Below, piece after piece: positions 24,868 to 49,401 of a stretch of 54,009 nt of DNA. The position numbers were made by a program, and so were the translations under genes. The stretch spans positions 1 to 54,009 of the forward strand of contig JACPHD010000034.1 in NCBI GenBank assembly GCA_016188785.1, given 5' to 3'. Below the pieces are notes generated by a model. The model saw nothing but the letters and a program-made list of their open reading frames with translations. It made no database searches and was not told where the DNA came from. This DNA comes from Parcubacteria group bacterium. GTDB lineage: Bacteria; Patescibacteriota; Patescibacteriia; Patescibacteriales; GWC2-42-12. Position 1 is the first letter of the stretch. The number at the start of each line of letters is the position of its first letter.

Positions 24868-26151
24868 TTACTTTATATTCCACTCTCTTAATTTTTCCAT
24901 AACTTTTTTACCGGTTAAATTATTTTCCACATAATCATGATACGCCTGCCCTTTAATCCTCTCTAGCACAGTCTCGTTGCCTTTATGTTGTTTTAAAATA
25001 TCGTCAATCGCCTGATGAACTTCTTCGTGGCTAACGGAAATTTTCTCTAAATTAGCCACTTCTCTAATAATTAAAGACACTTTAACTCTCTTAACCGCGT
25101 CCGGCATTAGTTCCAGCATAATCTGCTCGCGCGTTTTTTTAAGATGTGTTAAATAGTCATTAAAATTAGCGCCCTGATTTTTAACATTGTATTCCAGCTC
25201 GCTCATCATAACCTCGGCTTCATGTTTTATCAGCGCTTCCGGAATATCGCCGAACTTTGCCGCGCTGATAATTTTATCTAGCATAGCCGCTTGGCTGGCC
25301 TGCGCTTCGGTTTGTTGTTTTTCCGCGAGCAAACTTTTTTTAATGTTGTTTCTTAATTCCTCGCTGGATTTCAGACCAAAACTTTTAACAAACTCTTCAT
25401 TAACTTCCGGCAGAACGCGATTATAGATCTCTTTGATCTCCACCTTAAACTCGGCCATCTTGCCGGCTAAATTTTTATCATGATAATCGGCCGGATAAGG
25501 CAGGTTGAATTCCCGCGTCTCATTTTTTTTCGCGCCGATTATTTTTTTATCAAAACCGGGAATAACATAATTTTTACCAATAATCAAACCGGCGCCTTTG
25601 CCCTGGCCGCCTTCTAGCGGCACCTTATCTAGAAAGATCTGAATATCCGTAATCACTCTATTCCCGTCTTTAACCGCTGAATCAGATATAGTTTCGTTGG
25701 CGCGCATTTCGCGCAATTCTAAAATCAGCTTTTCCGCTTCTTCATCTTTAACTTCAGGCTTATGCTCTTTTATTTTTAAATCTTTATAATTTCCCAGCTT
25801 AACTTCAGGCAAAAGCGTAATTATTATTTTGTATTCCAGCGGGTTGTCAGGCGCTAATTTAGTAATATTAACCTGCGGCTGGCCCACAATTTGGCCGGTT
25901 ATATTTTCTTTAATCGCTTTATCTAAAGTTTTATCAATGGCCATGCGCGCGCCGGCTTCTAAAATCGTCATTTCGCCGATAGTATTTTTTAATATTTCAT
26001 AAGGCGCTTTGCCCGGGCGAAAACCGGTAATATTAACTTCCAAAGAAACTTTTTCCGCGCCGCGCAAAATATACGGCCTGAATTCTTCAGCCGTAAGTTC
26101 CACGGTTAATTCAATCTGCGATTTGCCTAAATCTTTTTTGGTTATGGTCAT
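24868..26151 (-). CDS. tig: Trigger factor
   Basis: A 427-residue ribosome-bound chaperone and prolyl isomerase. The ribosome-docking loop is TGFRPGKAP near residue 42, the FKBP-like domain spans about 150-240 (VIPGFDKKIIGAKK), and the helical C-domain follows to the end. Length and domain order are standard. Upstream are a promoter and a small RNA on the opposite strand. Confidence 0.95.
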   Translation of the reverse strand: MTITKKDLGKSQIELTVELTAEEFRPYILRGAEKVSLEVNITGFRPGKAPYEILKNTIGEMTILEAGARMAIDKTLDKAIKENITGQIVGQPQVNITKLAPDNPLEYKIIITLLPEVKLGNYKDLKIKEHKPEVKDEEAEKLILELREMRANETISDSAVKDGNRVITDIQIFLDKVPLEGGQGKGAGLIIGKNYVIPGFDKKIIGAKKNETREFNLPYPADYHDKNLAGKMAEFKVEIKEIYNRVLPEVNEEFVKSFGLKSSEELRNNIKKSLLAEKQQTEAQASQAAMLDKIISAAKFGDIPEALIKHEAEVMMSELEYNVKNQGANFNDYLTHLKKTREQIMLELMPDAVKRVKVSLIIREVANLEKISVSHEEVHQAIDDILKQHKGNETVLERIKGQAYHDYVENNLTGKKVMEKLREWNIK

Positions 26152-26207
26152 AAAATCGTCTATTTTTACCTTAAATTAGCTATTTTTTAATTTTTTAAAT
26201 TTTCAAC

Positions 26208-26235
26208 TTGACATTAGGAGTAAATATGCTATATT
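26208..26235 (+). promoter_or_regulatory. Strong promoter of a small RNA
   Basis: TTGACA, 16-bp spacer, TATATT preceded by TGC (extended -10). No ORF follows before an intrinsic terminator 50 nt downstream of the predicted +1. Confidence 0.75.
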
Positions 26236-26241
26236 GATGAT

Positions 26242-26321
26242 AAGGTATCAGGCTGTGGAAACCTCATCAAAGGTGAACCATTGAAAACATCTTCTTCTTC
26301 GGGAGAGGGTGTTTTTGTTTT
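26242..26321 (+). ncRNA. Unidentified small RNA of about 80 nt
   Basis: Begins after a near-consensus promoter and ends in a terminator: AAACATCTTCT pairs with AGAGGGTGTTT over 11 bp and is followed by TTGTTTT. The 5' part has a small stem (ACCT/AGGT). The largest ORF is trivial and no known riboswitch or SRP motif was recognised. The next plus-strand feature is the unusual tRNA at 26358, so the RNA may be independent or a leader that is terminated before that tRNA. Confidence 0.6.
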
Positions 26322-26357
26322 CAATTTTCTTATGTTATTATAAATTTGCGGCGGACC

Positions 26358-26442
26358 GGAGGGTAAAGCGCCTCGGAGGCGCCACAGCCTGATAATCTGT
26401 TGGTTCGCTTTTGCGAATGAGGTTCGACTCCTCTGCTCTCCG
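26358..26442 (+). tRNA. Aberrant class II tRNA, 8/4 (allo-tRNA-like), apparent anticodon GAU
   Basis: Fold by hand: GGAGGGTA pairs with TGCTCTCC (8 bp), and the T-stem GAGG/CCTC (4 bp) abuts it with loop TTCGACT, making the 12-bp 8/4 branch described for allo-tRNAs rather than the usual 7/5. The D-stem GCGCCT/AGGCGC is 6 bp with a 3-nt loop, and the variable arm TTCGC/GCGAA is long. G73 followed by CC is serine-like. The anticodon loop centre reads GAT. A normal tRNA-Ile(GAU) exists at 49328. Alternatives are a decayed tRNA-Ser or a tRNA-Sec relative; no UCA anticodon is visible. Confidence 0.6.
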
Positions 26443-26534
26443 CCGCGCTAAAGGCCATCTCAACTAAGAGGTGGTTTTTAGTTGCTTTGCAATTTGCCTA
26501 AATCTTTTTTGGCGATGGTCATAATTTTTAATTT

Positions 26535-26566
26535 GTCATTGCGGGCTTGACCCGCAATCCAGGGGG
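26535..26566. repeat. Flanking palindrome, left copy
   Basis: CATTGCGGGCTTGACCCGCAATCCAGG on the plus strand is the inverse of the copy at 27524-27556. The two bracket the hypothetical gene 26581-27450. Confidence 0.75.
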
Positions 26567-26580
26567 TAAGCCGTACAACA

Positions 26581-27450
26581 TCAATTCTTTTTTAAAAATC
26601 CTGCTCTCTCTATCTGCGCCGCCTCTTGTCGCGACTCTTGAAATTCTTTTCTTTGGGATAATTCTTTAAACCAATCACTTTGATAAAAATCATTTAAAAT
26701 ATTTTTAGCATTGGAAATATACTCAACTATTTCTGGATTATCTTTATGCTCTGGGTAATAGTCAAACTCGGGAACCGCTCCTTGATATTTTTCAGCTTCA
26801 GGAATAGAAGAGATAATATCAGCCTCTATTAAATCTTCATGAATTCTCCCTGTTCTTAAACATTTTTCAAAATCAATAATTGCTTGATCTGGATACCCAA
26901 AAATAATTCCTTCAAATAAAATTTCAAGATCAACCGCTTTTGGAATTTTTCCTGTTTTTTGTGCTTCTTTTAAGGAGCTATCAAACTCTTTGCGCCATCT
27001 TATCAATCCGTCCTTTCCTAATTTACTATCATATTGAGGAACGCCGGGTATTCTGGTAATTTTTGACTTTCTTTCAACTCCTTTAAAATTTACAACTGTG
27101 ATGCCTGATATTATAGAATCTCCTTCCAATTTTTTTGGACAAATTATTTCGAGGCCAAAGTTTTCAAGTTGTGAATTTGCGTGCTCTAATTTTTCCATTT
27201 TTTCTTTATCTAATTTAATCCAAGGCATATCGGCATAACCTTTCATGCCGGACATTAACAAAATTATATTAGATTCAGCTAAGCGACAGCCAAGCTCTGG
27301 CCCTAAAATTTCATAAAATTTTGCAGCTAATTTTGTTGTTTCAATTCCTGATAACGGTTCCAGTTTTAACCTTTCATATTCTTCTGCGGCTTTTTTCGAA
27401 ATATCTATTAATTCATAATCAGATTGTGAATAGAATTTTTCTTCTTCCAT
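26581..27450 (-). CDS. Hypothetical protein, 289 residues
   Basis: I do not recognise this protein. It is soluble, acidic and mostly helical by composition, with no signal peptide or membrane span. Segments that look structured are TKLAAKFYEILGPELGCRLAE, ITVVNFKGVERKSKITRIPG and GIIFGYPDQAIIDFEKCL; no catalytic motif stands out. Repeats in opposite orientation lie on both sides. It is slightly more AT-rich in third positions than neighbours such as hppA, which suggests accessory DNA. The single clean ORF supports a real gene. Confidence 0.65.
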   Translation of the reverse strand: MEEEKFYSQSDYELIDISKKAAEEYERLKLEPLSGIETTKLAAKFYEILGPELGCRLAESNIILLMSGMKGYADMPWIKLDKEKMEKLEHANSQLENFGLEIICPKKLEGDSIISGITVVNFKGVERKSKITRIPGVPQYDSKLGKDGLIRWRKEFDSSLKEAQKTGKIPKAVDLEILFEGIIFGYPDQAIIDFEKCLRTGRIHEDLIEADIISSIPEAEKYQGAVPEFDYYPEHKDNPEIVEYISNAKNILNDFYQSDWFKELSQRKEFQESRQEAAQIERAGFLKKN

Positions 27451-38045: not shown

Positions 38046-38232
38046 GAAACCTACTATATGTAGTTTTTATTAATTCGGCAAAGATATATAATTTTATAAA
38101 ACCGTCTTCTGACGGAAGCAAATTTCGGCTCGGTAGAACAATCGGATAGTTCAAGGATCTACTAAATCCTTAATCAGGGATCATGCCCCTGCCGGGCCTT
38201 ATTTGCTTCCGCCAATAGACGGTTTTGTTTAA
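38046..38232 (+). ncRNA. Unidentified structured non-coding RNA
   Basis: After a promoter, a coaxial set of stems can be drawn: P1 AAAACCGTCT (38098)/AGACGGTTTT (38217), P2 CGGAAGCAAAT (38113)/ATTTGCTTCCG (38201), and P3 GGCTCGG (38127)/CCGGGCC (38192). P3 encloses three hairpins: GAAC/GTTC, AAGGAT/ATCCTT and CAGGG/CCCTG. The P1 5' strand can alternatively close a local hairpin CCGTC-TTCT-GACGG, so two exclusive states exist. The 3' P1 strand is followed by TTTTGTTTAA. It does not match RNase P, SRP, 6S or tmRNA as I know them. The nearest gene downstream is convergent, so it is probably a free RNA. Confidence 0.7.
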
Positions 38233-46352: not shown

Positions 46353-46385
46353 GGATTCAAGTAAACCTAGTAAAATAAACTTATT

Positions 46386-46425
<40 letters not shown>

Positions 46426-46672
46426 TCTAAGGCATGCAAGTCGAACGCGCCTCCGCTCTTCACTGCGTGAAGAGCTTCGGACGCGCAAGCGCCCTATCAT
46501 AAAATAGGGAGCTTGCTCACCGTAGCTCATGCGTAGCGATGAGCGGAGGTGAGTGGCAAACGGGTGCGTAACACATTGGTAACTTACCCCGAAGTCATGA
46601 ATAAGCTTGCGAAAGCGGGTCTAATACATGATGGAAGCGAGGGGACTAAAGTCATTCTCGCTTAAAGCCTCG

Positions 46673-46688
46673 CCCCGCATCTGCGGGG
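46673..46688. repeat. Palindrome inserted in a 16S variable helix (5' domain)
   Basis: CCCCGCATCTGCGGGG caps the helix near E. coli positions 180-220; it is the reverse complement of the hairpin at 35541-35556. Confidence 0.75.
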
Positions 46689-47245
46689 CGGGGCGCTTCG
46701 GGAAAGGCCTATGGCCTATCAGCTAGTTGGCGAGGTAAAAGCTCACCAAGGCAACGACGGGTAGCGGGTGTGAGAGCATGGCCCGCCTCACTGGGACTGA
46801 GACACTGCCCAGACTCCTACGGGAGGCTGCAGTCAAGAATATTCCCCAATGGCCGAAAGGCTGAGGGAGCGACGCCGCGTGTATGAGGAAGCCCTTCGGG
46901 GTGTAAAATACTTTTAACCGGGACGAATCAATGACGGTACCGGTTGAATAAGGGGCTGCTAAACTCGTGCCAGCAGCAGCGGTAATACGAGTGCCCCAAG
47001 CGTTATCCGGATTTATTGGGCGTAAAGCGTACGTAGGCGGTTTATCGCATCTCCTGTTAAATCCCGAGGCTCAACCTCGGGGCCGCGGGAGAGATGGCTA
47101 AACTAGAGACCGGGAGAGGCAAGTGGAATTGCTGGTGTAGGGGTTAAATCCGTTAATATCAGCAAGAACACCTAATGTGAAGACAGCTTGCTAGAACGGT
47201 TCTGACGCTAAGGTACGAAAGCGTGGGGAGCGAATGGGATTAGAT

Positions 47246-48305
47246 AATCCATGCCCGCTCATAAAATATAGGTAAAAGGTGTCTCTTTTGACGGCGACGT
47301 CAAGATGAAAATTCAGCTATATCGGGGAAACTCCTGACAAAATGAGGTTTTACTGGCCTCGCCAGGACAATCCCGAGGGAAGTTCCATGGCCCGAAAAGC
47401 CATGATGAACCCCGTAGAGACTATGAAGTTGGTTTCGAGATAGAAGGCGCATTAATTAAAATATATGAATCATTATGTGCCTTTGTCGGATCGCGCCAAG
47501 GAAATTATTCTTGGCTCGCTTTTAGGGGATGGATCATTAAAGATCCATGATAAATACAAGAATGCCAGATTTTCTTTCAGGCATTCCGAGGCGCAAAAAG
47601 ATTATTTCTTCTGGAAAGTAAAAAATCTGAAAGAAATATCTTCAAAAAATTGCGTTTTTTGGCAGGAAAACAACGGCGGATTCAGTTCTAATAAAAAAAT
47701 CAGGTATCAAAGCTTGGCCTTGCCGTCGCTTACTGAAATTTATCAACTTACCCATAAGAAAAAAAAATTGCGTATCAGCCGGAGATGGCTGAACAAAATG
47801 ACAGCTCTGTCATTGGCTATTTGGTGGTTTGATGACGGTTCGCTGATTGCCAACGGCCGCAAAGGAGTATTTTGCACAGATGGTTTTGACGAAAAAAGCG
47901 TTAAAACTCTAGCGCAATACTTCTTGGTCGTTTGGAAAATCAAGACTAAAGTCGCGCCAATTACCAGAAAAAGGCGGGGGGAGCAGAAAAAATATTGGCG
48001 GCTCTGGCTGTATTCAACGGAAGAGCTGAAAAAATTTCTGCGGCTGATATTGCCGCAGACGCCGACGGCAAGCGCTTTGTCGAAAGTCGCGCTTCTCTAC
48101 AATGATCAACAACTTCAACAACGCTGGATATCTGAAATAGTTCAGTTAAGCCGTTTTTCTCTATCTGCCATTATGGCAGAATATGAGAAAAAACGCGCTA
48201 AATGGAGCCGTTACAGATAAAGATCTAGTCCGGACTTCATGGTAACATGAAGAATGGGACAGAAATGTTCCCATCAATTGCTAAAAGCAATTTGCAACAA
48301 ATTCA
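47246..48305 (+). mobile_element. Group I intron with homing endonuclease in 16S rRNA
   Basis: A 1,060-nt insertion at about E. coli position 793/794, in the 790 loop (GGATTAGAT|ACCCCAG). P1 pairs exon AGAT with intron TGTCT including a U-G at the splice site; the adjacent GGT can form P10 with exon ACC. Core elements resembling P/Q (ATCGGGGAAACTCC, ACAATCCCGAG), R (GTAGAGACTA) and S (AAGATCTAGTCC) are visible. The endonuclease ORF lies between R and S, i.e. in the P8 region. The predicted last intron base is A, where nearly all group I introns have G. Confidence 0.85.
47465..48220 (+). CDS. LAGLIDADG homing endonuclease
   Basis: A 251-residue monomeric enzyme with two LAGLIDADG helices: EIILGSLLGDGSL near residue 14 and SLAIWWFDDGSL near 116; the acidic Asp residues are at the catalytic positions. 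It should cut intronless 16S alleles and spread the intron. The stop codon overlaps the S core element of the intron (TAAAGATCTAGTCC), so coding and ribozyme sequences are interlocked. The start ATG follows AATTAAAATAT without a clear ribosome site. Confidence 0.95.
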   Translation: MNHYVPLSDRAKEIILGSLLGDGSLKIHDKYKNARFSFRHSEAQKDYFFWKVKNLKEISSKNCVFWQENNGGFSSNKKIRYQSLALPSLTEIYQLTHKKKKLRISRRWLNKMTALSLAIWWFDDGSLIANGRKGVFCTDGFDEKSVKTLAQYFLVVWKIKTKVAPITRKRRGEQKKYWRLWLYSTEELKKFLRLILPQTPTASALSKVALLYNDQQLQQRWISEIVQLSRFSLSAIMAEYEKKRAKWSRYR

Positions 48306-48441
48306 ACCCCAGTAGTCCACGCCGTAAACGATGGATGCTGAGCATTGGAAGTATCGACCCTTCCAGTGCTGTCTACCTAAGTTAACACCTTAAGCATCCC
48401 GCCTGGGGAGTACGAGCGCAAGCTTAAAACTCAAAGGAATA

Positions 48442-48485
<44 letters not shown>

Positions 48486-48567
48486 AGTAAGCGAGGAACC
48501 TCACCAAGGTTTGACATCCGGCTGCAGACCCCTGGAAACAGGGGAGCCTTCGAGGGTGCCGGACAGA

Positions 48568-48604
<37 letters not shown>

Positions 48605-48890
48605 ACCGTTAATTCGGGAAACGAGCGCAACCCCTATCCTATGTTTCATGTGTCATAGGAAACTGCCCGCTTTAAGTGGGAGGAAGGTGGGGATGACGTC
48701 AAATCAGCATGGTTCTTACACCTTGGGCGACACACGTGCTACAATGGGAAGCACAAAGGGACGCCAAAGCGTAAGCTGGAGCAAATCCTTTAAAACTTCT
48801 CTCAGTTCGGATTGAGGTCTGCAACTCGACCTCATGAAGCTGGAATCGCTAGTAAACGTGGATCAGCCACGCCACGGTAATGCCCGAAGG

Positions 48891-48906
48891 CCCCGCATTT
48901 GCGGGG
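48891..48906. repeat. Palindrome in 16S helix 44
   Basis: CCCCGCATTTGCGGGG near the tip of helix 44 (E. coli about 1450), same family as 46673-46688 and 35541-35556. Confidence 0.7.
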
Positions 48907-49007
48907 ACGAAGGTAGGATCGATGATAGGGACGAAGTCGTAACAAGGCATCCGTAGCGGAAGCTGTGGATGGATCACCTCCTTTCTAGGGAGAAAAAAGA
49001 ATTTTCG

Positions 49008-49327: not shown

Positions 49328-49401
<74 letters not shown>

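Follow-up and report, generated by a model that had tools for sequence, protein, structure and literature searches.

The 8/4 allo-tRNAs described by Mukai et al. (2017; reviewed in PMC7609411) combine an 8-bp acceptor stem, a 4-bp T-stem, a long variable arm and serine identity elements with anticodons other than those of serine, GCG being among the common ones. A link to transposons or toxin-antitoxin systems has been speculated for allo-tRNAs of the UAU type, and in our literature search the review was the one paper that joined allo-tRNAs and toxin-antitoxin systems (PMC7609411). It also reports that the stem-disrupted UAU allo-tRNAs of the Edaphobacter type are inactive in E. coli, which counts against a toxin reading. 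Systems in which RNA controls a toxic effector are known from elsewhere. In CreTA, a type VIII toxin-antitoxin system, the small RNA CreT sequesters tRNA-Arg(UCU) while CreA acts through Cascade (PMC12737573). In the type I system hok/Sok, the RNA antidote is made from the opposite strand of the effector gene and pairs with its transcript, which encodes a protein toxin. A 5'-3' fold-back holds that transcript inert until it is processed.

Here we describe a locus with affinities to each of these systems, found in a 54,009-nucleotide stretch of DNA from a Parcubacteria group bacterium, hereafter the window. Its tRNA half belongs to the known 8/4 allo-tRNAs, with which it shares all the traits listed above; what is new is the gene pair that this tRNA forms with an antisense RNA, RNA1. 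The allo-tRNA review does not include Patescibacteria in its list of host groups, nor does it mention an antisense partner, a leader lock or a gene pair with two promoters and two terminators (PMC7609411). As in CreTA, both components would be RNA, including the antidote, and translation would be the target; unlike in CreTA, a tRNA takes the part of the effector, and direct pairing with its RNA partner is predicted. The leader lock described below is comparable to the hok fold-back, and RNA1, like Sok, would pair with the effector transcript; the differences are that a tRNA would replace the protein toxin as effector and that the RNA1 gene is a neighbour of the effector gene. The tRNA also recalls bacterial tRNA-Sec in its 8-bp acceptor, 6-bp D-stem, long variable arm and G73, and differs from it in the 4-bp T-stem and the anticodon. 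In the open-access literature we found no tRNA described as having a co-evolving antisense RNA dedicated to it, nor any paper on antisense RNA directed at tRNAs, absence of precedent not being proof.

The tRNA belongs to a conserved 8/4 family

The features of the gene pair are collected in Table 1. A sequence-only reading of the window had proposed 8/4 geometry, a 6-bp D-stem, a long variable arm, G73 and a GAU anticodon for the tRNA, all of which were borne out by ARAGORN, folding and alignment. ARAGORN reports positions 26358-26444 as tRNA-Ile(gat). The isolated body folds at -37.1 kcal/mol (minimum free energy; z -2.2) and the anticodon loop reads CUGAUAA, an Ile anticodon loop of the form YUGAUAN.

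Table 1. Coordinates of the tRNA/RNA1 gene pair and its signals in the window
Feature	Position	Strand	Remarks
RNA1 -35 TTGACA	26208-26213	+	16-bp spacer to -10
RNA1 promoter	26208-26235	+	extended -10 TGCTATATT; hexamer TATATT at 26230-26235
RNA1, small antisense RNA	26242-26317	+	about 75 nt; ends deduced from promoter and terminator positions
RNA1 block 1, TATCAGGCTGTGG	26246-26258	+	exact reverse complement of tRNA 26382-26394
RNA1 block 2	26260-26280	+	complementary to variable arm and T-stem 5' strand
Block 2 part AACCTCAT	26260-26267	+	complementary to tRNA 26417-26424
Block 2 part GAACCA	26275-26280	+	complementary to tRNA 26401-26406
RNA1 intrinsic terminator AAAACATCTTCTTC / GGGAGAGGGTGTTTTT	26284-26317	+	-17.9 kcal/mol, then T run
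tRNA gene extended -10 TGTTATTAT	26333-26341	+	without good -35
5' leader GCGGCGGA	26348-26355	+	complementary to 26439-26446
8/4 class II tRNA	26358-26442	+	ARAGORN, fold, alignment, covariance model
Acceptor stem, 8 bp	26358-26365/26434-26441	+
D-stem, 6 bp	26368-26373/26377-26382	+
Anticodon stem	26384-26388/26396-26400	+
Anticodon GAU	26391-26393	+
Variable arm	26404-26408/26413-26417	+
T-stem, 4 bp	26419-26422/26430-26433	+
Discriminator G73	26442	+
3' partner of leader, TCCGCCGC	26439-26446	+	3' acceptor strand, G73 and trailer
tRNA transcript intrinsic terminator	26448-26481	+	-14.0 kcal/mol, then TTTTT

BLAST searches of relatives recovered near-complete homologues in other genera. In an 11-sequence alignment, 95% of the structure cells are paired and 19 of 28 pairs have changed on both sides, against about 44-60% paired cells for control structures slid along the alignment. 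Extending the alignment to 18 homologues leaves 95.6% of the pair cells intact, with covariation in 22 of 27 pairs. The 8/4 partition is itself preserved: where a fifth T-stem pair would fall, all 11 sequences have T facing T or C, acceptor pair 8 covaries (AU in ten, GC in one), and the helices that define 8/4 allo-tRNAs are 99-100% paired. To this geometry the molecule adds the long variable arm, G73 and non-Ser anticodon typical of allo-tRNAs. Fold and 18-sequence conservation rule out an ordinary class I tRNA-Ile(GAU) with a 7/5 branch. The sequence-only reading had named poorly conserved stems in relatives as the mark of a decayed tRNA; strong covariation was found in their place, which excludes a pseudogene. 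Judged from these substitution patterns, the tRNA family is under selection.

Applied to 111 genomes of the order, a covariance model found 18 loci scoring at least 65 bits in 12 of these genomes, a result well beyond chance; the next match, at 41 bits, falls among ordinary tRNAs. Samples of the class and the phylum (381 and 380 genomes) yielded members in eight more genomes of the class and in two genomes outside it, and a pattern scan of named genomes, whose match titles include Candidatus Magasanikbacteria, Uhrbacteria, Parcubacteria and Patescibacteria, gave three further members. In all, 30 distinct members of the module were collected in Patescibacteria. The weak model matches L105 and L108-L113, all below 50 bits, represent ordinary tRNAs or chance and have no antisense beside them. 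The anticodons of the members are GAU, GCG (two members), GAC (one) and an apparent AAC (one). The D-loop GG and the TTCGA T-loop are conserved across the family, as are U33 and A37, which together with a codon-reading loop are retained in 30/30 members.

G73 is present in 28 of the 30 members, the two GCG members having A73. The tRNA carries a serine identity set consisting of G1-C72, G2-C71, A3-U70, the long variable arm and G73. Among the native tRNA-Ser genes, three of four acceptors start with GGAGAG and all four have G73, like the allo-tRNA family, which supports both the allo-tRNA assignment and the serine-like identity proposed earlier. Known identity elements make charging by SerRS likely; A73 renders serine less certain in the two GCG members. 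Isoleucine codons AUU and AUC make up 7.4% of the codons in five open reading frames of the window. The normal tRNA-Ile(GAU) that had been noted at 49328 was confirmed by ARAGORN and Rfam, and since the genome holds it together with four tRNA-Ser genes, the allo-tRNA fills no decoding gap. As to the suggestion that the tRNA inserts serine at Ile codons, its premise of a Ser-like identity stands; as a constitutive role, such insertion is probably to be discounted given RNA1 and the leader.

The best Rfam model for 26358-26442 is tRNA-Sec, at 38.9 bits (gathering score 47), and the region is not listed for the generic Rfam tRNA model at that model's cut-off. One GCG member even passes the tRNA-Sec gathering score, which might point to divergent selenocysteine tRNAs. 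Against this stand the absence of a UCA anticodon from every member and of selA from all 21 member genomes searched, in a search that detected the E. coli control. A tRNA-Sec identity is rejected on these grounds, its probability being vanishingly small.

A co-evolving antisense RNA gene accompanies every member of the tRNA family

What the sequence-only reading missed is the dedicated, co-evolving antisense RNA gene beside every member of the tRNA family, and this gene is decisive for function. An inverted-repeat search traced block 1 of RNA1 to the 5' strand of the anticodon stem plus the loop. A short transcription unit has block 1 at its 5' end, followed by block 2, a hairpin. An equivalent of RNA1 is present in 30/30 members. 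Rfam assigns it no family at gathering score; sub-threshold matches to PyrR and L10 leaders look like chance. The order of the complementary segments in RNA1 is 1'-2b'-2a', so that binding of both blocks at once would need a crossed, pseudoknot-like complex.

The two genes have distinct transcription signals. RNA1 promoters average 5.7 of six matches to TTGACA over 27 members and lie a few nucleotides ahead of the antisense block; those of the tRNA are of the extended -10 type and average 3.0 of six. From this closer match to consensus, RNA1 is probably the more abundant transcript. RNA1 precedes the tRNA in 27/30 members, with its terminator just ahead of the tRNA gene. It lies downstream, with its own promoter, in the remaining three (L008, L009 and L107), implying that RNA1 can act in trans. 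An inserted repeat separates the two units in L014, with complementarity kept.

With tRNA positions numbered from the wobble base as 34, positions 26-39 are paired with RNA1 in 28-30 of the 30 members by way of compensatory changes, and positions 27, 28, 29, 31 and 39 each occur as AU, UA, GC and CG. RNA1 has been rewritten to match each of the anticodons GAU, GCG, GAC and AAC. Over 27 members, block 1 has a mean cognate energy of -25.1 kcal/mol as opposed to -11.0 when partners are permuted, and block 2 of -27.6 as opposed to -16.9 kcal/mol, with 0/20,000 permutations as low in either case; the window pair has a block 2 energy of -28.2 kcal/mol. Of 27 RNA1s, 25 find their best target in the cognate tRNA; for the other two, near-identical rivals exist. 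About 70 other tRNAs from the loci analysed served as a control: no exact antisense stretch within 300 bases of them exceeded 10 nt, most being 5-8 nt. When the RNA1 of the window was set against 39 distinct tRNA sequences from its genome, the allo-tRNA scored -25.4 kcal/mol and the next -16.5; the 38 other sequences fit far worse, which rules out a native tRNA as the target. Judged by predicted pairing and co-evolution, the module consists of two adjacent RNA genes with specifically pairing products.

A leader predicted to lock the tRNA precursor

The sequence-only reading had pointed to a competing pairing between GCGGCGGA and TCCGCCGC. This pairing proved to be real, conserved and dominant in the predicted full precursor. 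The tRNA transcript is predicted to start about at the leader, 7-9 bases of which pair with a stretch that runs from the 3' acceptor strand through the discriminator into the trailer; the leader base opposite N73 changes along with it, also when N73 is A. The pairing is kept in 23/27 members (at most three of 300 shuffles were as good). Significant leader pairing is missing from L008, L009, L106 and L107, three of which are the members with RNA1 downstream. In folds computed without modifications or proteins, leader pairing displaces the acceptor stem of the precursor in 19/27 members, the stem having a probability below 0.5; in the mature form that probability is at least 0.95 in all but one. 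By prediction, then, the leader locks the precursor by pairing with the tRNA's own 3' end, and the tRNA would be held off both by RNA1 and by its own leader.

Distribution and genomic context

The distribution of the module is patchy and non-syntenic, and sometimes multicopy: up to three diverged tRNA/RNA1 pairs occur per genome, with several different pairs in G025, G076 and G012. No neighbouring protein shared across members was found, and searches of plasmids, phages and IMG/VR returned no match and hence no plasmid or phage carrier.

In the window, a 37-bp direct repeat (92%) of the start of the trigger-factor gene flanks the module at 26117-26153 and 26488-26524, in the manner of a target duplication. 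Inverted repeats of about 55 nt flank L002, L003 and L004, parts of them being found again at other places in the same genomes, and the L004 copy has a DDE transposase close by. No common element boundary could be established from the flanking repeats of these four copies. Further downstream in the window come a dispersed repeat, TTGTCATTGCGGGCTTGACCCGCAATCC (26532-26560), which accounts for most of the 45 genomic matches reported for the query, and the gene for a 289-aa protein that adjoins the module and has no Pfam match (26581-27450).

One genome, G299, has its module next to a HEPN/nucleotidyltransferase pair, a known toxin-antitoxin arrangement. The same genome holds a second unit (L152; G299:C25:13973-14182, minus strand) made of a canonical 7/5 tRNA-Val(GAC) and, next to it, a transcription unit with GCACATGTGTCAA, which is exactly antisense to the anticodon arm over 13 nt. 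This second unit was not found in the sister genome G312, which has the first module. The case suggests that canonical 7/5 tRNAs can also be the effector.

Possible function of the module

The two genes resemble a poison and its antidote, both made of RNA, or else a dedicated off-switch for a tRNA. We give roughly even chances to its being an RNA-only, toxin-antitoxin-like module in which a mis-decoding tRNA is silenced by its own antisense RNA. One could envision the following scheme. Gene 2 would yield an 8/4 class II tRNA that unites the serine identity set with an Ile anticodon loop and, if matured and charged by SerRS, would place serine at AUU and AUC codons. Gene 1, from its stronger promoter, would yield the short antisense RNA1, whose 5' end would pair with, and cover, the anticodon loop and pair with the 5' strand of the anticodon stem, and whose hairpin would disrupt the variable arm and T-stem by pairing with them, giving a complex incapable of decoding, charging or folding as a tRNA. 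The leader, paired with the 3' end of the tRNA, would keep the precursor inert until trimming. Loss of the module, or a shut-off of transcription followed by decay of RNA1, would then release the mis-decoding tRNA, in the manner of a toxin-antitoxin or addiction unit. Expression, charging, toxicity, neutralisation and unequal stability of the two RNAs are elements of this scheme that we infer. Co-evolving and multiple pairs, patchy non-syntenic spread and the lack of a partner protein are as expected of an addiction or defence module, although mobility and co-evolution by themselves do not prove a toxin. A little short of even, in our estimate, is the chance that we are dealing with a family of addiction modules spreading through Patescibacteria as small cassettes, with a mis-charged or mis-decoding tRNA as the poison and an anticodon-arm antisense RNA as the antidote.

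Other readings have to be weighed against the poison-antidote scheme. Conservation of functional tRNA features (D-loop GG, TTCGA T-loop, U33, A37), and the activity of other 8/4 allo-tRNAs in E. coli translation (PMC7609411), would suit a deliberate low-level missense suppressor that inserts serine at Ile codons under stress, with RNA1 as the rheostat. We regard such regulated mistranslation as unlikely, since the anticodons vary between members and the patchy, multicopy, non-syntenic spread better fits a selfish or addiction element than a host circuit. Retention of U33, A37 and the codon-reading loop in every member, along with the lack of a partner protein gene, speaks in turn against a non-translational role, be it as a tRNA-shaped regulatory RNA, an aminoacyl donor or an anticodon-nuclease decoy whose activity RNA1 would set. 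That role, which draws support from the absence of a decoding gap and from the predicted lock on the precursor, seems to us quite unlikely.

Alternatively, RNA1 might not be a separate RNA but act in cis, as a leader that senses the level of the tRNA and attenuates its transcription accordingly, in a T-box-like feedback. The position of the RNA1 terminator just ahead of the tRNA in 27/30 members invites this idea, and pairing with an anticodon is what T-boxes do. Yet the tRNA has its own extended -10 past that terminator in nearly all members, RNA1 is downstream in three and displaced in L014, and the pairing spans about 14 bp plus the variable arm rather than one codon. RNA1 is therefore not a leader in cis of the gene it would control, and we consider attenuation improbable. 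An inverted partial copy of the tRNA could in principle create complementarity by itself. Such a copy would present the order 2b'-2a'-1', which differs from that found in RNA1, and cloverleaf and pairing both covary; the cognate specificity was equalled by no permutation. Covariation, specificity, compensatory changes and block order together refute decay, chance and simple inverted duplication, to which we attach only a minute probability.

If the toxin reading is right, the module could also be classified within the RNA-RNA (type VIII) toxin-antitoxin systems. If the inferred function is true, it would add a new class of effector to toxin-antitoxin biology, give allo-tRNAs a concrete role, a question open since their description, and offer a way for a genome to carry a code-breaking tRNA safely. 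Even if the tRNA is no toxin, the pair would represent a natural RNA device that switches off one chosen tRNA. The system is directly testable in E. coli.

Other observations

At L106 (L151; G733:C15), an RNA1-like unit with promoter, GGTTATCAAGCGCG and terminator lies about 100-200 bases past the allo-tRNA; no matching tRNA was found nearby, and the unit is possibly an orphan antisense RNA. The module at this locus is antisense within a long open frame with phage-integrase SAM-like domains, as is that of L068 (G012:C23) within a frame for a repetitive protein with intein-like segments; both frames are unbroken. In the window, the tRNA-Ser(act) called by ARAGORN at 38127-38199 is without Rfam support and probably false. 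The SSU rRNA match at 46380-48984 spans 2605 bases, compared with 1533 positions in the model, and so contains an insertion of about 1 kb, probably introns.
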